Below, piece after piece: positions 323-35,969 of a stretch of DNA of 64,000 nt (its first letter is position 1; each line of letters opens with the position of its first letter). The notes below the pieces were generated by a model. It did no database searches, had not been told where the DNA came from, and saw only the letters and a program-made list of their open reading frames with translations. The position numbers were made by a program, and so were the translations under genes. This DNA comes from Branchiostoma floridae (Eukaryota; Chordata; Leptocardii; Amphioxiformes; Branchiostomatidae): contig NC_049996.1 of the NCBI RefSeq assembly GCF_000003815.2, positions 9,512,715 through 9,576,714 of the forward strand. The letters are read 5' to 3'.

Positions 323-2632
323 CTAAAAGAGTTCCCGTTGCCGAATCTCCGTCATACACCTCTATGTAGTCATTGATGCAGCTTCCGACGAAGTTCGTCC
401 CCAAGTCGAAGGCGTCGAAACTGAGAAGAACAACCGAACCGACTGGTACAGTCACCGACCACTCACACGGCTCGTAAGGGTATGTTCCGGGGTAGTTGTC
501 AGTTGTGAAACTCTGACTCGAGAATGTAGTGAAGCTTCCTCCATTGCTGCAAGCTGAAACACATTGAACAATATATCAGGCAATTGAAAATATCACATGA
601 AGTAACTTCATCGTTAAGTTCATAACGTCAATCTTATTCAATATTTGTCCAGTGCATCAACTTTTATTTTAGACAAGATAGCAATGGTATGAACTTTCCC
701 TTGCCTCTAACCCCACACAATACCGCATTCACCTACAAAAGCTATACAGCCGTTAATGTTTAGGTAACAGTGAAATCAACATAGAGAATTTTCCAAACTA
801 CGATTTTCATAGCTGTACCTAATCATAATAGTGCCGACATGGTTACTGGATGTGAATAGCGGTGCCAATTTGCTCTCAAACGCAGACCGGCTGTTTTCGA
901 ATAAAGCGTTTTGTATCTCACCATTTGTAGCTAACAACACAGAGGCAACATGACGACAGTTGGTAAATTTACCTAGCGGGCTTGTCATTCATCTTACACG
1001 TCGTCTAGTACATTAGTTGTCCAACTCCCTCTGAATAGGCTACTAATTGTCAAATTTTCTACACTGCATGTTACCGAATGCCTTTAGATTGGCAGAGTGG
1101 GGTGGTTTGATCAGCGTGTGACATTATCTATAATTTGAACTAGATTTGTCAAGAGAATCTTTGCTACTATCTCCGTCCTGAAGGAAGGATGCTTGCACTT
1201 AATTGTGTTTACCTATTGAGCCCCATTAAGATCTCCTTACAGCCTTAATCTTGCTTAAATATGCACAGGTCGCTATGAATAGATGAAGAGACAACACGTC
1301 TCACACTGAAGGTAGAAAACAGTTGTTCAGATAGTTGGAGACTGAAACGACTGCTTATGTCATTGATACCTTAAAATACGGAAGGCAAAATAATGGAGTT
1401 AAATGCTTTAAAAACATACTTCCGAATTCATGTATCCGAGTATTCAGCGTTCCTCTCTTTTATGGCTTTACTTGTTCGTCCTGAAACTCTTTAACCTGCA
1501 CTCTGTTACCTCACCCCATAACCAATGGAGATTGGGGTGCCAAATGGCTACTTCATAGTGCTAAAGGCTGATGTGACAGAGTTTTTAAATCAAAACATCT
1601 TCCAGGCCCTCCTCCGGACACTCAAAAGAGACAGCGCTCATCCTGCTGTCAGGTTGCTCCAGACACATGTGTAACTCGTCAACATGCACGGACCGCTTCA
1701 CATGAAAAACAGCGGCTAAACAGACATACCACCTGCCGGTAATCCGTAGTCTAAATAAGCTGTTTCTGAGCATCACCACGTCTTAAGGGACCTGCTGTTG
1801 TACCTCTTTGTTGTGTGCTTTTCTTGTTAAAGAGGTATTCCACCAAAAAGCCCGTCTCATACTAACGCTAATGGTTACAGTGTGAACATGTGTAGGGCTT
1901 AAACCTCGGTGGTCAAGAGTTCGTGATAAAAGAACGTTGTGCGCCAAAGGAAGCTTAGAGGCAAAATTCGTCTGTTATAGTAGCCGGGAAAAGGGACTCC
2001 TTAACTTTACTTTGTCAATGGGTATCAGGGATTTTGACCCGCTCTTATTAGATCAATTACTGTATTTAATCTTTGCGGCTCATTCTTTCTTCTTCAAACC
2101 AAATGTAGCAGTGACTCCCCGGCTTGTTATAGTGTATTTAGTGGTGTTTTGGACGTATTTCTGAAGAGTTTTTTTTTTTGTTACATTTTTTTTCTGGAGG
2201 GAGGCGCGATTTTACCATTCGGGTATCTGTATAAAGCGCGCACCTCCAGAAAAAAAAGTACAAAACACCTCCAGAAAAACGTACACTCAAAAGAAGCCCT
2301 CCCGCTACATCTACCTGAAGATTAGCACTTGAACCCATCACTCTTCGAATTCATCGCACGGTACGCACAATCTACATCCAACAGGCCGTGGGACCAGCGT
2401 TACATTTGTGACATCGCCTCTGAACAATCATTGCTACCTTGTCTATTAGAATGAAGGTACAGCGCAATAAACTTGATCCATCTCGGTAAGTCATAATGTT
2501 GAGATAAAGGTAGATAGTCAGATGTATTTTTACGATTTTAGTAGACTGTAGTGTTGCATATATGTACCCACCTGACAAGGCTCCGTCTATGAAGACCAGC
2601 ACCAGAGCCAGCAGGATAGCAAAGAGAGACAT
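323..2632 (-). CDS. Secreted CUB-domain protein, 5' part (gene continues off the left edge)
   Basis: Two exons are visible on the minus strand. Exon 1 (2632..2572) encodes Met plus a signal peptide rich in Leu/Ala/Val, about 20 residues. Exon 2 (553..323, 231 bp) encodes the first half of a CUB domain: Cys at residue 22, an 'EWSVTVP' strand followed by 'VLLSF', a later Cys, and the typical 'IEVYDG' near the end. Both junctions are phase 1: donor CAG|GTGGGT at 2572 and acceptor TTTCAG at 554. The exon probably ends at TTAG|GTAGTC (323). That gives the same 231-bp length and phase as CUB exon 2 of the gene at 30.6-36 kb. Reading on gives a stop at 288-290, but the domain would then lack its fourth Cys and second half. 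The missing 'FCG' exon is not within 1-322, so it should lie beyond the edge. CUB domains bind proteins or glycans outside the cell; the specific role is unknown. Confidence 0.8.
554..2571 (-). other. Intron 1 of the left CUB gene
   Basis: Bounded by a GT donor at 2571-2570 and an AG acceptor at 554-555 on the minus strand. It holds only short, unconvincing open frames and one T-rich hairpin (2187-2290, listed separately). Confidence 0.7.
2187..2280. repeat. Short hairpin with CCTCCAGAAAA arms
   Basis: A T-run followed by CTGGAGG near 2187-2202 is answered by CCTCCAGAAAAAAAA near 2246-2260. A second ACCTCCAGAAAAA copy follows about 20 bp later. The arms also end in GCGCG on the inner side. 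It looks like a small palindromic repeat within the intron; the family is unknown. Confidence 0.45.
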
Positions 2633-16079: not shown

Positions 16080-16440
16080 TAGATACTTATTGGGGAAACA
16101 GTAGATGACTACTAAATATCTACTGACACACAGTAGATGACTACTAAATATCTACTGACACACAGTAGATGACTACTAAATATCTACTGACACACAGTAG
16201 ATGACTACTAAATATCTACTGACACATAGTAGATGACTACTAAATATCTACTGACACACAGTAGATGACTACTAAATATCTACTGACACACAGTAAATGA
16301 CTACTAAATATCTACTGACACATAGTAGATGACTACTAAATATCTACTGACACACAGTAGATGACTACTAAATATCCACTGACACATAGTAAATATCTAC
16401 TGACACTGACTACGAAATATCTACTGACACACAGTAAATC
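16080..16440 (+). repeat. 32-bp tandem array, about 10 copies, self-complementary unit
   Basis: The unit contains ATCTACTG-ACACA-CAGTAGAT, an 8-bp perfect stem with a 5-base loop, joined by GACTACTAAAT. Copies are nearly identical through about 16370 and then degrade. Confidence 0.9.
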
Positions 16441-18652: not shown

Positions 18653-18978
18653 TTTGCATCGCAAAGTCTTTTTTCACTTCCGAGCAAGGCTTTAAAATCA
18701 CGTTCATACAAGAATTACACTACTCATTCAAGTTTGGCGGAAACAGAAGGTGTGTTTTATTCATAAAGCTCGGGCAATCCGCCCGAGACTTAGGAAAAAT
18801 ACAACCATGAGAATCAACGGTATAACGTAAAAGCTTAGGTACTTCTGTAAACCCATATAAAGAAATAATGGAATATTTCAACTTCTTTACAAATCTAATA
18901 CTTTCGATCATCGACTTAACAGCCTCGAACCATGACATGGGAAATATTTTGGAGAGTCAATTCTTCATAAATTTAGCC
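18653..18978 (+). repeat. 326-bp repeat, copy 1 (identical to 23021-23346)
   Basis: As read by eye, the two copies agree at every base from TTTGCATCGCAAAG to ATAAATTTAGCC and diverge abruptly on both sides. A 19-base hairpin, CTCGGGC-AATCC-GCCCGAG, is at 18769-18787. A 72-codon minus-strand open frame is present in both copies but has no recognisable features. Confidence 0.9.
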
Positions 18979-19830
18979 TCCATCCCAATACCAGCAGGTA
19001 ACACCTTGAATAAGAAACCTCACTACAAGAAAGCGGAAATGTAGCAACGGGGTTGAAGGCTAGTAGCTCTTCGTACAATTTTACCTAATGACGAGAGACC
19101 TTAAAGTACGTTACAATCATGGCAAGACTCTTCCTAAACACAAGCCCTAGTAAAGTCATGATTTAACAACCTGTTACGACTGTGACTATTCATCCATACA
19201 AACTTGCCATTGTGATAACCTTACAACACGTTACTATGGCATTCATCCTAATCGCAAACTTAAACATCGGTATATCCTCATCCAACATATTATATCTGTA
19301 ACAATTCGCAAATAGAGCTGTAACATGGGACAACCCTATAAATCGTTATATATTTCTAAATACGACATGTCACATCATCGCGACTAATATAAGCAGCAAT
19401 GAAAGCTTAAATTAGGCTAACTGGTTAAAACTCATCAGAAATCAGTAATATAATAGCAACAAAACTTCTCACACCTAACAGTATCATAAACAAATGCGTT
19501 AATACAGAAAGTTTACACGTATTAACCTTCTAAGAATGAAATATCAAGACACTGCAAGTAAGAGAGTCTACAGGCACTTCGCGGCTCATCAATCCGGGTT
19601 GGCTGGAACAGTGAAGTTCGACGAGCTGGATGTCGGATCGATGTTGGATGAACAGGTGCTTGGGCAATCCGCCCAAGTGAAGAGCGGGAGGTGGCAGACA
19701 AACGTTTAGTCGAAGAACTGGATGTCCCAGCCAAAGTGAACTTGGGTGCTGTATGCTGTATGAAAAGACGCTTGGGCAGTCCGCTAACGTGAGTCTAACA
19801 GAAGCAAATACCACAGACTCAGTGAGTTAA
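18979..19830 (+). repeat. Element downstream of repeat copy 1, with hairpin units
   Basis: No gene is seen. Near the right end a roughly 110-bp unit is repeated about twice. Each unit has a GCTTGGGCAATCCGC-type site (19659-19677, a 7-bp stem) and a decayed one at about 19771. This links the segment with the element at 22.8-25.0 kb. Confidence 0.45.
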
Positions 19831-21755
19831 AGACACTTTTCATCCTTCTGCGCCCAATTGACTAGTCCACCAACTTTGACGTGCTGTAGAAAGTTACTGG
19901 GCTGGTATTTTTCTAAATTTTCAAGTGGAGCTACTGACCAATAGTATATTTTCAGACTATATGTATTACCTAAAGACTCACTGATATTAAGATATAAATA
20001 TAATAAGCACAACTAGATTTTAGACCTTCTAGGCCCTTGGCACAACATCCCAGAACATATTTTTTGACACAAATGCGGTATGTATATTTTCAGCAAAGAG
20101 CACTCTATAATGTTTAGGTGGTTCCAGCCCCACTAGTATGATTATAGCAGAGATATACTTTAATATGTTCAAAGTATTTTTAAGAATATGGCCAATGTGA
20201 AATATTCACGGCAGCCTGACAGGGAAGTTGGAATATGCACACCCACAGGACAAATTGAAGGTTTAAAGTACAACTTGTCTGCTTACCCGACATGTCCTTT
20301 GGGACAAATAAAAACATTGCATATGGTTGCGCCTTTAAGAAAAAGATAACATGACGAAATTGCAACTTTTGGCCATTCCAAACATGAAATGTGATCTCTT
20401 TGTTTGTATAAAGTGACAATATGGCCAATAAATTTGTTGACTTCCCTGACAGGGTGAGTTCCAGCTTGTCACACCTCAGCTTGGGTTCCGTTGTTCAATA
20501 ATAAACAAACTATTTGAAATAGATTGATAATGTATATACTGCCATATATTTGTCTGATTTGTTAATCATTCTACTATGCACTAGCTTTACATTGCAGTTA
20601 TGCTGAATGTCCTTCTCATTCCAACAATGTACAATTATTAACCTAACAATAATTTTTGAGCATACTGGCCTGGAAAAAGAAATAATACAGGTACATTATG
20701 ATACATGTAACATTACTAGTTTAAAAGCAATGAGTTTAAAATAATCAGCCTCCTTCTTTGGGGGAAACATGGTCAATTTTTTGGGGTATTTTCTTGACTT
20801 CAGAAACTGAAAGATTAAAGCATTTTTTCTTATTGTAGATTAAAGAAAGAAAAAAAAAAAATGCAGAGAAACAGTAGCACCAAGGAATCTTGTAATTAGT
20901 CTGGTGGATAGCAACGGAAGTAATACTTTCTTGAAAATTCTGAAGATTTCAGTTTGAAACAATTTCTTCTTCTGGTGGATCTGACCTGGAACATTAGCTG
21001 AAAGTATATGTATCATTTTCCTACAACAGTGACATCAATCTCTGAAAAAAAAAAAGGGGGGGGGGTTAGTTAGCTCTGGTAAGACTCGGGAAGATTGGGG
21101 CATTTATTTGAGAACAGTTTCTTGTTTTAGTCAGTCGAAATCAGATTATGCCCAAACTGGTCCCAGCGTATAAATGGTTGGATACGAGCGACTGAAGCTG
21201 GGCAATGTATTAAGTCAGCTGTACTGTATCATTTTCAAAGTTATTTGTACTTATGATGACAGCATGATTCAGACAGTGGCATTCAGAATATTTCTAACAC
21301 ACTGGAAACACTACACCCAATACACGCCCTGCTTGCCTTCCCAGACAGTACCCCTACATGGTGCCAAGTAATGTCTTACCTGGCCAGGCGGTACACTAGG
21401 TGTGTGTGGGGGGAGCTATTATCGAATAATGGGTGAAATCCTGGGAAACTTGGGGTCAAAGGTGGTTGCTATGTGTTGCTAGCGGAGCCAACAACCACTT
21501 TGCTGGGGGTCTTCAAAGTGACTTAACCCTCTGAGGAGCAGCGTAGGGGTCCAGCGTTGCTTCCCTGTAGAAAATGGGGCAAACTGGGCGCGTGATGAAT
21601 AGCTGCAGTTACAAAACAAATGAACAGATTTGCAATAAAACATATAAACTGCAAATGCACAAGGTAACAATACGTACTGAAACATTTTATGCGCATATCT
21701 AAATAGTGACTAGGTTTCGCACTTCAACGGCCATATATTTGGCGTATATGATCCT
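19831..21755. other. Intergenic, no gene recognised
   Basis: AT-rich sequence with a poly-A then poly-G run near 21043-21065. Short open frames are present, but none has splice partners or domain features. Confidence 0.4.
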
Positions 21756-22280
21756 GACAATGAAGGGCATTATAGCGCAGCACTAAGCAACATTACAAAA
21801 TAGCAAGGCAACCCTATTTACTATCATTGGAAATGGGAACAGAATTCTAAATACACCTCCGTACATTGAAGGACATTATAGTATAGCACTAAGGAATATT
21901 ACAACATAGCAGAGCAACCCCATTTACTACCACTGGAAATGGGAACAGAATTCTTAATACACCTCCGTACAATGAAGGACAGTATAGCACAGCACCAAGC
22001 AATATTACAACATAACAGAGCAACCCCATTTACTATCATTGGAAATGGGAGCAGAGTTCTAAACACCTCCGAACAATGGAGGGCAGTATAGCACAGCCTT
22101 AAGCAATATTACAACATAGCAGAGCAACCCCATTTACTACCACTGGAAATGGGAACAGAATTCTTAATACACATCAGTACAATGAAGGACAGTACAGCGC
22201 AGCAATGAGTAATGTCATAGCATGTCAGAAATAGCGTAGCAATGGTCAATATTGGGAAATGCGAACAGAGTTCTTAAGAA
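21756..22280 (+). repeat. About 106-bp tandem satellite, five copies
   Basis: The phrase GTACAATGAAGGACA recurs at about 21756, 21861, 21967, 22071 and 22177. Each copy also carries TTACAACATAGCAGAGCAAC and CACTGGAAATGGGAACAGAA. Partial CACTGGAATGGGAACAGAA pieces follow at about 22431 and 22480. Confidence 0.85.
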
Positions 22281-22794
22281 GATTTAGAAAGGCGAATTTA
22301 GTCCTTGCACCTAAGAGAATAGTAACAGAAAACATGGGAGCACATAAGGCCGGAACACGACCTGGAATTTCATGTCTATGCTAGCCAACGGATGGCGGGG
22401 CTGCCTAGACTGGTGCTACATACCACTGGAATGGGAACAGAAAACAACAAGCCACGAATTTTTCCCAATACTACCACTGGAATGGGAACAGAACACAAAA
22501 AGCCTCATGTGAAACATTGATACAGGTAATTCCTGATGCAATCATGATAAACACAAGGCAAAATATATGGTGATGAGAAAACATTTCAAGTTGAATGTAA
22601 AAGTAATCGGATATGCCAATGCTAAGCCAAGCGCCTGGAACATCGGTAAACATTGAATAAATACACAACAGGGTTGAATGTGCATCCACCTACAAGAAAG
22701 GAGTTGTAAATAAGGATCAGAAAAAAGGGGGGTAAGCAGAATGATATCAGGACAATGATGCTATCAATGGTGAAAGAATGGGGCGGTGGGAGGG

Positions 22795-23022
22795 AAAAAA
22801 TCGCAGGAGATCTCAAGAAGACGAACCTTCCGACAGCGTGGTTGAGTTTTTCTGCCACGAGGTTAACTGGCTCTCCCAGCTCCGCGTGCTCGGAGCGTGA
22901 TCATGAATATTCAAAAGCATGTGCGAGTAAACCACGGAAGCTCATGAATATTAAGTAGTGCAAGTCTCGCAACGTTTTGGCGCCAAAATCCCCAGCCTTG
23001 CTCGGGCCGTTCAAAATCAATT
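22795..23022 (+). repeat. 228-bp direct repeat, left copy
   Basis: Runs from AAAAAATCGCAGGAG to CAAAATCAATT. It contains the palindrome TTTTGGCGCCAAAA (about 22976-22989), which matches the E2F site consensus, and two ATTCATGA words. Its end CAGCCTTGCTCGG pairs with CCGAGCAAGGCT just inside the interior, so a 12-bp stem spans the junction. Confidence 0.9.
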
Positions 23023-23346
23023 TGCATCGCAAAGTCTTTTTTCACTTCCGAGCAAGGCTTTAAAATCACGTTCATACAAGAATTACACTACTCATTCAAG
23101 TTTGGCGGAAACAGAAGGTGTGTTTTATTCATAAAGCTCGGGCAATCCGCCCGAGACTTAGGAAAAATACAACCATGAGAATCAACGGTATAACGTAAAA
23201 GCTTAGGTACTTCTGTAAACCCATATAAAGAAATAATGGAATATTTCAACTTCTTTACAAATCTAATACTTTCGATCATCGACTTAACAGCCTCGAACCA
23301 TGACATGGGAAATATTTTGGAGAGTCAATTCTTCATAAATTTAGCC
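23021..23346 (+). repeat. 326-bp repeat, copy 2
   Basis: Identical to 18653-18978. Here it directly abuts, with a 2-base overlap, the 228-bp direct repeat, which copy 1 lacks. Confidence 0.9.
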
Positions 23347-23829
23347 ACCAAAACCCGCTATGTGCGGGGCAAAAAGATCCACAGCCGTAACAAGGCGCCA
23401 AAACAGAGCGACATGCGACGGGCCCGTACAGAACTGGCGGATATGATTACGCCACATGTCATGGATGTTAAAATGCTGCTTATTTGAAAATAAAATCCTC
23501 AATGCGGTAAATTGTGAGATAGACACATTTTGAAAAGGGATGCATGAGGCATATAACCAGTTTTGATCACAAGTATGTCTTAAAGATCGCAGCTACCCAC
23601 CGTGTGGATCCGTTGTTGCAAAATAGAATGGTAATAAATAAACAATGTAACGTTACGTCAAGATGAACTAAATAAGGGGACTAAACATTCTTGAGAGGGG
23701 AATAAACAGACCAATATGCAAGTACACGAAAAAACAAACTAGGAAAAGGTGAATTTAATAGATTACCAGCTGTGTTATGTGACGAGAGTTTTCCCCCTGG
23801 TTGAAAAAACCACTACTAAAAGCTAACGA

Positions 23830-24120
23830 TAACAGTTCTGCAAATTGGGCGGCAATCCGCCGCCGGGTCCCAGATATTTAAAAACACTAATTGACTAGCG
23901 ATCAGCTAAAGTTTGGCATGTTGGACGTCACTCCGTCGTGTCCAAGTATTTCAAAACACTACCCAACTGGCGAAAGGCTAACATATTTACATAATGGACG
24001 GCAATCCGCCTGGTTCTGAATATTTCAACACTAGCCAGCTAGTAAAACTAAGGGTTTGCTCGTCATGCTGGACGGCAATCCGCCGATTTCCAGATATTTT
24101 TAAAAATTTTGACCTGATTT
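23830..24120 (+). repeat. Approximately 75-bp tandem units carrying GGCAATCCGCC hairpins
   Basis: About 3.5 diverged units share AGATATTTnAAAACACTA, AGCTAAnG and TTGGACGGCAATCCGCC. Hairpin centres are at about 23856, 24004 and 24079, with a decayed one near 23935. Related hairpins lie outside the array at 24217-24234 and 24450-24466. Confidence 0.65.
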
Positions 24121-24778
24121 CAAAGCGGCCACACTAAGGGCTTCCCGTATATTCTTGTTACAGTAGTAGATGGAATTCCCGTAGTTTCACAAATGGAGAA
24201 CGTCGTAATCAAAGTAGGCGGCATAATTACCGCCACGGAACCGTAAAAAACACGGAAACCGTTCGCCTGTCACGTGGAGTTGTATGGTAGGATGGAATCT
24301 CGGCAACTCGCCAGCTATTGTCGGCCGCATTTTGGGCTTATGTGAATCAAAAGTTATTGACAACCCGTAGGTGTTGTATATCATACAAAATAAAACTGGA
24401 AATGTTACAGAATGAACGTCGCGACGCCAGGATTGGTTCATGAGGGGATCTCGGCAGCCCGCCGAGTTGAAACAACGTTACAAAAATTCTGTAAAGCGTG
24501 GCAAAAATGTAGAGCCTGGGTTCCCAAGGCGAAAGGGCCCGACTCGAAGTAGACATTTAATGAGACGAAGCACGTCAATGAATAAGGCTTCACAAAGAAC
24601 AAACGCGTCCGACGTCTAAGTTCAAATAGAAGTAACGGTTATGAATATGGTAAATAGGATAGTCCCGAGACGACAATCAAGAAACCAACCGGGGATCACA
24701 AAGAAGGCTTCCAACGCCGAAGCCATCATAGAAAGGACTTACCGGGAACTATAGGGAGCAGGCGGAAAAACATTTGCA

Positions 24779-25006
24779 AAAAAATCGCAGGAGATCTCAA
24801 GAAGACGAACCTTCCGACAGCGTGGTTGAGTTTTTCTGCCACGAGGTTAACTGGCTCTCCCAGCTCCGCGTGCTCGGAGCGTGATCATGAATATTCAAAA
24901 GCATGTGCGAGTAAACCACGGAAGCTCATGAATATTAAGTAGTGCAAGTCTCGCAACGTTTTGGCGCCAAAATCCCCAGCCTTGCTCGGGCCGTTCAAAA
25001 TCAATT
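24779..25006 (+). repeat. 228-bp direct repeat, right copy
   Basis: Base-for-base the same as 22795-23022 by eye, including the TTTTGGCGCCAAAA palindrome. Confidence 0.9.
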
Positions 25007-30590: not shown

Positions 30591-33500
30591 CTATAGCTTG
30601 ATAGCTAGTGCAAGGCAACTAATCAGCGTAAGCTCTCCGAGGGTGACGTGAACTCCGGCTGAGGTCTCGTTACCCCAGGGTCGACCTTCTTCACCAATCA
30701 TTGTGGGGCGCTCGGTAGGGTCAGGAACGGTCGCTGTTTGAAAGAAACATTGCAACTTATAATGCTAGTTTCATCATCATCATCATCATCTTCGCCGCAT
30801 ATCAGTTTTGGTTAATAGTTTACCTTTATATGTGAGGTAACCTATATCCATTGTTTTTAAAAACAGGGTATTTATAGGGATGTTAAGTCGATGGATGGTA
30901 GTTTCAAACTGCAATTTTCAAAAATATTGCTACTTGAAACCACCTTCCGTCAAATTGATAATCCTTAAAACCCTGTTCCAAATACAACGGATATAGGTTA
31001 GTTCACAGATAAAGGTGAACTAGCATTAAAGTAATATTCTATGCAAAAACATCAAATTTTACCAAATGGTCAATTTTTGTTCATTGACATTGATGAATAC
31101 GTAAAAGTAAAAACTATCAGTCTTTAACTTACCTGTATAAGTGGCAAAGAAACCCATATCATTCACAGCCTCGTCTGACATAAACTCAACAATCATGGGT
31201 CCGTCTGTGTGGATGTCATCAGGCTTGTTCCATCCACAGTATGTACCTAAGCAACAACAAAAGGTGGAACGTTGGCATCCGTTACTTCAAATTTGCCAAG
31301 GAGATTTCATTTAACCATTGGTGAGTTACTGGCAGAAGATATTCTTAACACGATCTTGATAATGATACATTGAAGAAGATAATAAGATAGGTGACACAGA
31401 CAAAAGATAGCAGAAATCAATACTATCTGAAATGTCTGACTGATTCCAAAATCATATCCAGCTGCTTGACTAACTGCTTTTTGCAATATTGATTAATACG
31501 TGTCTTCTAATTTTACTTTCTAATTTCACTTTGGGGGATGGAGGAAGATCTTAGTCTGAGGAATAACTGACAAAGTTTTGGGATAGACAGATATATATCT
31601 AAGACATTTCATTAAGAAATGACTAAACATCTTACCTATGAGTGATTTTCTGTTGCTGAATTCTTCGTACACTGCCAGGTAGTCATTGGTGTTCCCTGAA
31701 CACTGGCTGAAGGGGCCTCCTACCTGAGGGAGGGAGGGGGAATGATAGAACAGCGGATATGACCTATCATACACTTTTTCTACTTGAAGTGAAACTCTTG
31801 ATAAAACATATCCAATGTGTTTGTTATCAATACGCAATATAACAATATAAGAGCTTGGCCTTGCCTGCTAGTTGTTTACGCATGGAGCTGGAACAAACAA
31901 CATACAAAAGTCTTTAACACAACCCTTAGTTTCCTTGACATAGACATTCACACTAACACCGTCCCTTTCCTTGGTGCTGATAGACATTCACACTAACACT
32001 GCCCCTTTCCTTGGTGCTGATAGACATTCACACTAGCACTGTCCCTTTCCTTGGTACTGATAGACATTCACACTAACACCAACACTGTCCCTTTCCTTGG
32101 TGCTGATAGACATTCACACTAACACCAACACTGCCCCTTTCCTTGGTGCTGATAGACATTCACACTAACACCAACACTGTCCCTTTCCTTGGTGCCGATA
32201 GACATTCACACCAACCCTGTCCCTTTCCTTGGTACTGATAGACATTCACACTAACACCAACACTGTCCCTTTCCTTGGTGCTGATAGACATTCACACTAA
32301 CACCAACACTGCCCCTTTCCTTGGTGCTGATAGACATTCACACTAACACCAACACTGTCCCTTTCCTTGGTGCCGATAGACATTCACACCAACCCTGTCC
32401 CTTTCCTTGGTACTGATAGACATTCACACTAACACCAACACTGTCCCTTTCCTTGGTGCTGATAGACATTCACACTAACACCAACACTGCCCCTTTCCTT
32501 GGTGCTGATAGACATTCACACTAACACCAACACTGTCCCTTTCCTTGGTGCTGATAGACATTCACGCTAGCACTGTCCCTTTCCTTGGTGCTGATAGACA
32601 TTCACACTAACACTGTCTCTTTCCTTGGTGCTGATAGACATTCACACTAACACTGTCCCTTTCCTTGGTGCTGATAGACATTCACACTAACACTGTCCCT
32701 TTCCTTGGTGCTGATAGACATTCACACTAACACTGTCCCTTTCCTTGGTGCTGATAGACATTCACACTAGCACTGTCCCTTTCCTTGGTGCTGATAGACA
32801 TTCACACTAACACTGCCCCTTTCCTTGGTACTGATAGACATCCACACTAACACTGTCACTTTCCTTGGTGCTGATAGACATTCACACTAACCCTGTCCCT
32901 TTCCTTGGTGCTGATAGACATTCACGATAACATTGTCCCTTTCCATGGTGCTAATAGACATTCACGCTAACATTGTCCCTTTCCTTGGTGCTGATAGACA
33001 TTCACGATAACATTGTCCCTTTCCATGGTGCTAATAGACATTCACGCTAACATTGTCCCTTTCCTTGGTGCTGATAGACATTCACACTAACATTGTCCCT
33101 TTCCTTGGTGCTGATAGACATTCACGATAACATTGTCCCTTTCCATGGTGCTAATAGACATTCACACTAACACTGTCCCTTTCCTTGGTGCTGATAGACA
33201 TCCACACTAACATTGTCCCTTTCCTTGGTGCTGATAGACATTCACACTAACACAGTGGACTATTACTATGACTACTAACACTGTCCTTTTCCTTGGTGCT
33301 GGTAGATATTCAGCATGCTAATTGACAGACTCTGTCCCTTTGGTGAGGGGTACATAATGACCCTACCTGGAAACTGTGGAAGGAGAGGGTGACGTTGGTG
33401 CCAGCTATCTCCCACTTGCAGGCGGCACCACTGCTGTAGCTGCTGGGGAAGTTGGCTGATGCTAGTGTGCCAGTCTGGCTGGTGAGGAGGGCCAGGTTGC

Positions 33501-35969
33501 CACAGCCTGAGTTCAGCTCTAAACAGAAGGGAACAATAAAATTTAAACATTATGTTGCTACCAAAATATTAAACTGTATAGATCATTCCCATACAGTGAC
33601 CAATTTCATCTTAGAATTTTAACACTGATTCAGAAATAAAAACTTGAAAGTTTGACCATTCACATCCTCCTACGCACGGTCCTCTACAGCTAGCTAACTG
33701 CCATTGGGGTGACCACAAGGACTGTGGTCCCTCTGCATAGGAGAATTGACCATTCAATGACCTAGATTGTTGTGTGTGTTAATGTGTGTGCTTTGCCACA
33801 AGTTTGACTTACAATCAAAATTTCCTTACCCAATATATGCCGGGACCACAACTATGGACCAGTGGGTTTTATGGTATTAATAACACTAGATTTGCCAGGA
33901 TGCATACTAGGAAACTACAGAACTAGGTAGTTAAAATCTGCATTGATAACTCACCAGGTCGGACTGCCTTGTATGAAGCAGAGAAACCTGTGAAGAGCTC
34001 GTCGTTCCTTGGCCACCTGTTCAACAGGAACTTCACGATCATGACGTCACCTCCAGACATCATCGCAGGGGGCGGGGTCTGCCCGCAAAATCTACCTGTC
34101 AATCATAAGTGTTTTCATCACATAATTATTATCAATATAATATATATTAAAAGCCATTGGTCAGAAATTCAACTCAATTCTTTACTGTTGTTTATGAGTC
34201 ATCAGTAACAAGAAAACAAGACTATAAATATTTAAGGTCATTGTGCTGCCATTTGATTTATACAGCATTTTGGGATATATTTCTTAAGATTCTCTGTGAC
34301 TGTAACTGTTCATACAATTATCATGATCATAGCTTAGGTAAAGTCATTCCCATCTCTGTGTCAATGGCCTTAGACCACACAGCATAAAAGTTCCAATCAC
34401 TACAGTATGGGGCTAGTCCACTTATGGTGTGTGCTCAACTACTATACTTTCTCAAATGCTGAATGCTGAGCAGAAAAAGCAGTGTGTGCCATTTTTTTAT
34501 TAAAGTCTTTGGTGGTATGATTCTGCCAGGAATCAAACTCACAGCCTGCCAAACATTAAGACTTTTGGCTTGGCTAATAATAATGCACCTGTACCAATCA
34601 TCATTATACAATTTAGATAATAATAGAAATAATACAATTATTGTGATCATAGATAAATTCATCTTACCCATCAGGTTTGCAGCCTCATCCGTGCCGTTAT
34701 AAACCTCGATCATGTGCAGGTAACACTTCTCTGGTGTATCAGGGAAGGGGTTGAGGTCAATCCGGTCAAAGGTCAGCAGCACGACCTGACCCTGGGGCAC
34801 GCTGATGTTCCAGGTACAGTCTGTGTCAGCCGGGTAGGGGGCGGGGTAGTCGGGGGACGTGATGACGCCGTGTTGTGCTGTTAGAGATCCACCGCACTCT
34901 GGGGGGGGGGGGGTGGAGAACAGTTTGTGAAGGAGTTAGCTGTGGACAAATTGACATTGGCATCCAAGAAACATTAACAAGCCATAAGGAGGTATTCTAT
35001 GTAGGGTTGAAAGTTTAATGGTACTATTAACCACTCATTGATTTCCTACTGGAAGAAATTGTTTCAACCAAGCAAGTGTCTGTCAGGTAGGGGGCGGGGT
35101 AGTCGGGGAGGTGATGACGCCGTGTTGTTACGTAAGAGATCCACCGCACTCTGGGGATTTTTTTTTTTTAGAGAATGGTGTGGACAAATTGCCGTTGGCA
35201 TGCCAGAAACATTAACAAGCCATAAGGTTTAATGTTATGTTTGGGTGAAAGTTATAGTTTATCACTCTTTGCTTTAACTGGCTTGAACTTGTTTCAACAA
35301 ACTAAAAATATTGGGTAGGAGGCAGGTTTGTGATGTCAGAGAACCACTGCACTGTGGGGAATTTTTTTTTAAGGGAAAGGTTTTGGAAAGAGTCATCTCA
35401 AATTGATATTGGCATCCAAGAAACAGACAAGCCATATAGTTTGATTTTATGTATGGGTGAAAATTGTAGTTAAGCACTCAAAGCAATTGTCCATTAGGCA
35501 CGGGTTAGGGTTATTAGTGATGATACCATGTTTTGATGTCAGTGAACCACTGCACTCACTGGGGATTGATTAGTTTTTAGGAGAGTTAAGTTACTTAAGA
35601 TATGCGGGAAATATTTGTCTTAGGATGACATCCCACAAACTGAGACATGTCTAAGTTTCAGTTTTGATTATAAGGCATGTTTATTAAGTTACTATAAGCA
35701 CTTCTTGCACTCTTGCTAGTTTCATCTACTAGTACTTGTTTCAAAAAGGAAACTTATTACGCATTGTAAGGGTTGAAGGCATCAATCAATCTCACCCAAA
35801 GCCTGCTTGTGCACTATCTTGCAATATGACAGTCTAGAGAGCAAAAGTGTTTTTATTTAAAATGGTACTAATGTAAACTGAATTCAGCTCCAATCTTACC
35901 TGTGCTGGTGGCAGGATAAGCCAGTAAGGAGAGCAGAAGAATTGTCAGTGTTATATCGGCCACTCCCAT
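30591..35969 (-). CDS. Two-CUB-domain cell-surface or secreted protein, 7 exons, complete
   Basis: Exons on the minus strand: 35969-35900, 34898-34668, 34095-33955, 33518-33367, 31723-31636, 31246-31133, 30733-30591, with GT-AG borders and matching phases, giving 312 residues. Residues 1-23 are a signal peptide. CUB1 spans about 25-147: 'ECGGSL', 'DCTWNISVP', 'IEVYNG', 'GRFCGQTPPP', 'GF.ASY'. CUB2 spans about 151-264: 'GCGNL', 'ACKWEI', 'YLAVYEE', 'TYCGW', 'GFFATYT'. Each domain keeps the four cysteines of the CUB fold. The C-terminus after a short Thr/Pro/Gly-rich linker ends in a hydrophobic stretch (about the last 17 residues) with a few-residue tail, as in GPI-anchor signals; a very short membrane anchor is the alternative. 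A weak acceptor at 36002 suggests a separate upstream untranslated exon. CUB pairs usually mediate extracellular binding; no protease or other catalytic domain is present. Confidence 0.9.
30812..31029. mobile_element. Palindromic TTAA-type MITE, copy B
   Basis: Ends in TTAATAGTTTACCTTTAT and AAAGGTGAACTAGCATTAA, with TTAA at both borders. Inside it is nearly fully self-complementary: GGTAACCTATATCC against GGATATAGGTTAG, and AGTTTCAAACTGCAA against its inverse. It sits in intron 6 of the two-CUB gene. Confidence 0.8.
31930..33310 (+). repeat. Minisatellite of 40-46 bp units, over 30 copies (intron 4 of the two-CUB gene)
   Basis: The basic unit is GTCCCTTTCCTTGGTGCTGA followed by TAGACATTCACACTAACACT, 40 bp. 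A 46-bp variant carries an extra ACCAAC. The centre (about 32045-32530) alternates variant units in a higher-order pattern of three or four units; the right part (32930-33180) alternates CATGGTGCTAA and CTTGGTGCTGA pairs. The core matches the dispersed GGTGCTGAATGACATTC repeat. Confidence 0.95.
35083..35160 (-). pseudogene. Decayed partial copy of CUB exon 2 in intron 1
   Basis: Minus strand: an acceptor-like CCCCAG then AGTGCGGTGGATCTCTTACG, matching the start of exon 2 (34898 downward), but the next codon is TAA. The copy also ends after about 70 bp. Downstream intron sequence (GGACAAATTG, AACATTAACAAGCCATAAGG) was copied with it, so a roughly 260-bp segment was tandemly duplicated. Confidence 0.75.
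35300..35580 (-). pseudogene. Two older, more decayed copies of the same CUB-exon segment
   Basis: The words GAACCACTGCACTGTGGGGA (about 35340) and GTGAACCACTGCACTCACTG (about 35543) correspond to the exon-2 acceptor region. Both are followed by the T-rich stretch and, in the first, the AAGAAACAGACAAGCCATA segment. Together with 35083-35160 this makes a decaying tandem series. Confidence 0.55.

Follow-up and report, generated by a model that had tools for sequence, protein, structure and literature searches.

Elements of the Ngaro superfamily (order DIRS) are bounded by split direct repeats (PMC9210276, PMC8547959, PMC4157794) and have been described with an SGNH hydrolase in amphibians (PMC9210276). 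Isolated AB repeats have been reported from a flagellate (PMC8547959), and Ngaro-like elements, one of them with a distinct arrangement of the split direct repeats, from amphioxus (PMC2632668). The window analyzed here, a 64-kb stretch of the genome of the amphioxus Branchiostoma floridae whose strands are given as + and -, holds at 18653-25006 (6,354 bases) what is, as judged from its sequence, one non-autonomous mobile element, a Ngaro-like relative of the tyrosine-recombinase (YR) retrotransposons whose membership in Ngaro proper is not proven. This element carries a series of short hairpins built on GGC-N5-GCC, and the full hairpin of its terminal repeats is confined to the element family.

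On the + strand the element reads A1-int1-B1-A2-int2-B2, and in the presumed coding orientation B2', int2', A2', B1', int1', A1' (Table 1). The preliminary description had seen here two related TRIM-like elements, a view replaced by that of one composite element with split direct repeats and Ngaro-type relatives. When the genome (513 Mb, 431 contigs) was searched, the same order was found in two more composite copies, L009 (contig C4) and L010 (C9), the latter with an N gap ahead of its second B, which was found in L091; the three copies are 91-98% identical in long BLAST pieces. Comparison of the two A repeats of one copy shows 1, 3, and 2 differences in 330-331 positions (window, L009, and L010), as against 5-9 differing positions of A between copies. 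Similarly, B1 and B2 are without a difference over 228 positions in the window and show 1 in 247 plus one gap column in L009 (L010 was left out), as against 1-4 mismatches and 19-41 gap columns between copies, and in the window and L009 the indels that distinguish the copies are common to both B repeats of each copy. Repeats near-identical inside a copy and divergent between copies would be the trace of copying from one template, as with long terminal repeats (LTRs). Furthermore, the direct junction of B with A recurs in L009, L010, L099, and L100.

The window element resembles Ngaro in the order A, B, A, B with A1=A2 and B1=B2, found alike in L009 and L010, and in the SGNH hydrolase of some Ngaro elements, present as a relic in the window and as an open frame in its relative L100; one relative also has, next to this A end, a putative tyrosine recombinase. 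It differs in having a 3.8-kb interior between A2' and B2', whereas Ngaro has a contiguous B1A2B2. Since the outer repeat pair encloses at least 3.8 kb (3.8 kb in the window, about 6.4 kb in L009) and no B1A2B2 stands contiguous at one end, we use the term Ngaro-like and refrain from assigning the element to Ngaro; its composite repeat order is a variation on the split direct repeats already described. TRIM elements are likewise without a recognized gene and bounded by direct repeats, but these are two whole LTRs flanking an interior, whereas here the repeats are split into A and B, and that assignment was rejected. Near its ends the element also bears dyads, among them the perfect palindrome TTTTGGCGCCAAAA in both B copies (22975-22988 and 24959-24972), close to the presumed 5' end of the transcript, which we take to resemble an E2F site, and GCCTTGCTCGG of B1 (22995-23005), an inverted match to CCGAGCAAGGC of A (18680-18690). 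The TT-rich ends, subterminal inverted repeats, and palindromes prompted a comparison with the rolling-circle Helentron and HINE elements, which are characterized by subterminal inverted repeats, T-rich ends, a palindrome near one end, and no coding (PMC4067079, PMC7492417). The window element has the same terminal features; unlike those elements, it has LTR-like concerted split repeats and linked YR and SGNH frames, on which grounds the Helentron assignment was set aside, no Rep/Helicase search having been made. Two parts of int2 (24313-24439 and 24615-24770) recur at three places on C6 with 83-93% identity, and partly elsewhere, so that int2 is itself a mosaic. At the counterpart of window position ~24185, a hairpin of 23 nt (stem around CCAAGGA/TCCTTGG) is inserted in L009, with TTTGAC repeats on both sides; this insertion is not present in the window, L010, or L089.

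The coding strand was presumed from the relatives. An SGNH-hydrolase frame lies between A and B in L089/L098 (one locus, C11) and, as an open frame of 232 aa, in L100 (C233), and a tyrosine-recombinase frame adjoins A in L090/L102 (another single C11 locus); all of them run counter to A in the orientation drawn, and with the YR and SGNH frames thus on the minus strand, this is taken as the coding one. The Pfam matches of these frames (Lipase_GDSL_2, E 0.02 in L089/L098 and 1.5e-4 in L100; Phage_integrase, E 5.4e-4 in L090/L102) are below the curated cut-offs. In L100 the junction of B with A adjoins the open SGNH frame, and a single A and a single B enclose the hydrolase alone. No tyrosine recombinase was found in the window element. 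The recombinase protein of L090/L102 has 61 genome matches, of which 15 fall in 333-residue frames, one of these interrupted by a stop, and a further three in frames 331-332 residues long; these 18 places score near-equal, and the family has possibly been active recently. In L100, a 141-aa open frame with an internal Met (921-1346, minus strand) lies beside B in coding orientation, matches no Pfam family (best E 0.27), and may represent the beginning of a further gene of the element. C233:601-8600 (L111), inspected for partner genes, resembled none of the element parts compared with it. AATAAA is followed by CCGCCAAAC in A and, by eye, by the much similar CCTGCCAAAC at two of three other YR loci (L112 and L113), the third (L114) having no AATAAA in the 1.5 kb fetched. 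Because this context is common to A, L112, and L113, A' probably holds the 3' end of the transcript.

The 11-mer GGCAATCCGCC is present six times in exact form in the element (18773, 19663, 23141, 23851, 24000, and 24074), with 0.29 occurrences expected even when one mismatch is allowed. The looser pattern GGC-N5-GCC occurs at eight sites in the element vs. none in the window's remaining 57.5 kb; other fetched loci have 10 in 115,663 bases (fetching motif excluded). The eight sites share a single orientation, with the loop AATCC at six, AGCCC at one, and AACTC at the eighth, at 24302. When perfect hairpins were counted (stem of at least 6, loop of 3-8, at least 4 G/C in an arm), the element had 8, five of them in the GGC-N5-GCC series. 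Over 100 dinucleotide shuffles the count averaged 1.24 and never exceeded 4, and the remaining window sequence has 1.33 in a stretch as long as the element. The enrichment bears out the preliminary description in its view of a non-random hairpin series within a mobile element, and the stems at 18769, 19659, 23137, 23848, and 24450 are as it gave them, as is the retention of 3-4 pairs at the weaker sites (3 at 24000 and 4 at 24074); it had also counted at least seven GGC-AATCC-GCC sites, of which the six exact ones stand, the loop at 24450 being a different one. The sites are not independent: 18769 and 23137 are one and the same site in the two A repeats; a degenerate tandem array with a period of 73-76 bp accounts for 23851, 24000, and 24074, the hairpin at 23848 being its first unit and further units lying near 23926, 24000, and 24074; and 24302 forms with 24453 a duplication of 82% similarity. 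By our own count the eight sites trace to about four origins, and their common orientation is for this reason weak evidence. The hairpin at 23848 is deleted in L010, and at the sixth pair of 24450 L009 and L010 have GCCGACT; in our reading, the G of the window at that pair may be the product of a deletion junction. Against Rfam, the window between 17000 and 27000 gave a single match (E 1.3) and L009 with L010 another (E 1.2), neither of them near a gathering score.

Genome-wide, the 19-mer CTYGGGCAATCCGCCCRAG has 12 exact and two one-mismatch matches, all 14 inside the element family; the reversed control had 2 matches at up to two mismatches, and among eight of the nine two-mismatch matches of the 19-mer none was significantly similar to the element (best E 0.01). 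For GGCAATCCGCC there were 125 matches vs. 47 for its reversed control, and at least four further Watson-Crick pairs surround it at 11 of the 105 sites examined, again all inside the family. Many of the other GGCAATCCGCC matches are an unrelated genome repeat, acctaaaatgca-GGCAATCCGCC-gttcctttctgcag, without a stem. A DNA search independent of the motif (query A plus the start of int1) gave 19 matches that place A sequence at 11 loci, six of which (window, L009, L010, L098, L100, and L102) have the 19-nt terminal hairpin unaltered, and one of which, L101, has the loop AATGC with an intact stem.

The differing stems had been read as compensating changes, a claim that found no support, as different sites had been compared with each other. 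When the same terminal stem was aligned across the eight loci with letters there, which make only four distinct rows, none of the seven pairs had changed on both sides; six were invariant and one was broken. Independent mutation of stem positions had been named beforehand as the outcome that would speak against structural selection, and the few changes seen, in a small sample, are of that kind. Even if the hairpins prove neutral, the case carries a caution, that differing stems at differing sites are not covariation. Conservation of A was assessed in five loci with the 11 fetching columns taken out and 20,000 column shuffles: its 29-nt invariant run was reached by 57 of the 20,000 shuffles with gap columns counted. 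An earlier figure, 2 in 20,000, had included the fetching columns and was biased, since two of its five loci had been found through the 11-mer motif. With composite copies so similar (91-98%), their recent origin accounts for much of the conservation.

We tentatively favor the reading that the hairpins are protein-binding RNA stem-loops, read by a Gag-like protein or a reverse transcriptase (RT) of an autonomous partner. The element would be transcribed from its minus strand and its repeats homogenized at each copying round; hairpins in the transcript would present GGAUU (or GGANU) in a loop closed by GGC/GCC, the terminal one directly 5' of the poly(A) signal. A protein of the family, most simply a Gag-like RNA-binding protein or an RT supplied by the partner, would recognize the loop and inner stem, and this recognition would select the RNA for copying, while the outer stem would be required only to pair, leaving outer stems free to differ between sites. 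This reading draws on the hairpin enrichment, the RNA fold z of -3.96 at the terminal hairpin on the minus strand, the restriction to the family, and the 19-nt hairpin unchanged in six of eight aligned loci; on the coding strand given by the YR and SGNH frames, the concerted repeats, and the junction of B with A in L100; and, weakly in view of the few origins, on the single orientation of all eight sites. A loop and inner stem shared in unlike flanks, at A, 19659, and 23848, favor it further. Retroviral packaging stem-loops are bound by Gag through exposed loop guanosines, and the presumed transcript similarly has several short GC stems with G-containing loops, a likeness from which we infer a possible packaging-type function of the window hairpins. 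A more elaborate version, which we consider rather unlikely, is a multi-copy RNA code in which constant GGAUU loops, on the poly(A) side in the 3' terminal repeat and in the interior, would let a protein select autonomous and defective transcripts alike, with the genes in two modules bracketed by A and B, one with the hydrolase and one with the recombinase adjoining A. To our knowledge, RNA selection by DIRS/Ngaro elements and the mobilization of their defective copies are poorly known, and a defective family with countable stem-loops and no recognized genes would make a simple test object. Among the titles listed from the Ngaro literature on hairpins and split direct repeats and from that on DIRS-1 stem-loops, none describes such a hairpin series, and the passages seen of some of these works are likewise silent.

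Just as likely as the RNA stem-loop reading, and held with the same reserve, is that the hairpins are neutral passengers, chance palindromes and local duplications in the founder of a small family that were copied along. Several results weigh against the former, and a number of them are what the latter would leave behind. Repeated ends and a tandem array inflate the count, so that about four origins stand behind eight sites; besides the want of two-sided pair changes, one stem pair is broken on one side in L099 and the terminal hairpin is missing in three of the 11 A loci (L103, L105, and L109, more diverged copies). Near 19774 the window has GCT where L009 and L010 have GCC. The three C6 places match int2 on both sides of 24440-24614, their two int2 matches being 7 bases apart, without that stretch, which includes the hairpin at 24450; this weighs against the RNA reading and for the neutral one. 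With substitutions alone, the invariant run of A was reached by 2,266 of 20,000 shuffles and is not unusual. In addition, RNA folding at the seven other sites is weak (z -0.2 to -2.0), no GGC-N5-GCC was found in the 1.5 kb after the YR at L112, L113 (partly N), and L114, and, of the 48 YR matches on C1-C16, all but the family's own are more than 12 kb away from any exact GGCAATCCGCC; the hairpin thus looks private to this family and no general Ngaro signal. No RT or RNase H was noticed in the frame lists by eye or in the Pfam-scanned frames, with no genome-wide RT profile search made and whole autonomous copies not fetched, and no gag was identified in the frames examined. Chance palindromes, for their part, sit poorly with the loop and inner stem shared in unlike flanks, with the common orientation, and with 8 perfect hairpins where 1.24 are expected.

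The symmetry of the sites also suits a double-stranded DNA function, in which a dimeric protein, be it an NFI-like host factor or the element's own recombinase, would bind the GGC-N5-GCC dyad in promoter, replication, or integration, an explanation that we hold to be unlikely. The spacing is exactly 5 nt at all eight sites, although it is built into the search pattern, and the element ends have other dyads such as TTTTGGCGCCAAAA; NFI has the consensus TTGGC-N5-GCCAA, with the same spacing. The base ahead of GGC, however, is G or C at all eight sites where NFI has T, the mostly constant spacer and constant orientation are not needed by a symmetric dyad, and the terminal site is set back 116 bp from the end, off the junction of B with A. 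As NFI binding sites proper the hairpins were rejected, since none of the eight has T before GGC and the spacing alone fits. Less probable still are small mobile or template-switch hairpins, that is, perfect palindromes inserted as units with a loop shared by chance. In L109, AAAG and CTTAG stand with no terminal hairpin between them, and the 23-nt insertion of L009 is flanked by TTTGAC repeats and not shared by the window, L010, or L089; but this insertion differs in sequence, absence in diverged copies can be deletion, and the AATCC hairpin has no copies with 0-1 mismatch outside the family.

Table 1. Features of the composite element, with positions and strands of the window.
Feature	Position	Strand	Remarks
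Terminal repeat A, first copy (A1)	18653-18978	-	3' repeat in presumed coding orientation; A2 vs. A1, 1 mismatch in 330 bases
AATAAA, putative poly(A) signal	18756-18761; second copy 23124-23129	-	follows the hairpin after 7 nt in the coding direction; retained at all 8 loci having the hairpin region
Terminal hairpin	18769-18787	-	7-bp stem; coding strand CTCGGGC-GGATT-GCCCGAG; RNA fold z -3.96
int1 interior	18979-22794		no recognized gene (Pfam scan, three frames); 106-bp tandem array at 21757-22204
Internal hairpin CTTGGGC-AATCC-GCCCAAG (+ strand letters)	19659-19677	-	7-bp stem; identical in L009 and L010
Terminal repeat B, first copy (B1)	22795-23022	-	0/228 mismatches to B2
Terminal repeat A, second copy (A2)	23021-23346	-	abuts B1 directly, TT common to both
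Terminal hairpin, second copy	23137-23155	-	7-bp stem
int2 interior	23347-24778	-	holds the hairpin series and the hydrolase relic
Hairpin GGCGGC-AATCC-GCCGCC	23848-23864	-	6-bp stem; first unit of the degenerate tandem array
Relic, C-terminal end of SGNH/GDSL hydrolase gene	24112-24228	-	tblastn 2.8e-7 with L089 frames
Hairpin CTCGGC-AGCCC-GCCGAG	24450-24466	-	6-bp stem; last pair window-specific
Terminal repeat B, second copy (B2)	24779-25006	-	5' repeat in presumed coding orientation

Elsewhere in the window, a 32-bp tandem repeat of 9.2 copies lies at 16098-16391 and a minisatellite with 31.5 copies of a 40-bp unit at 31940-33253, and a CUB-domain frame (Pfam E 3.1e-16) is found on the minus strand at 34435-34935.

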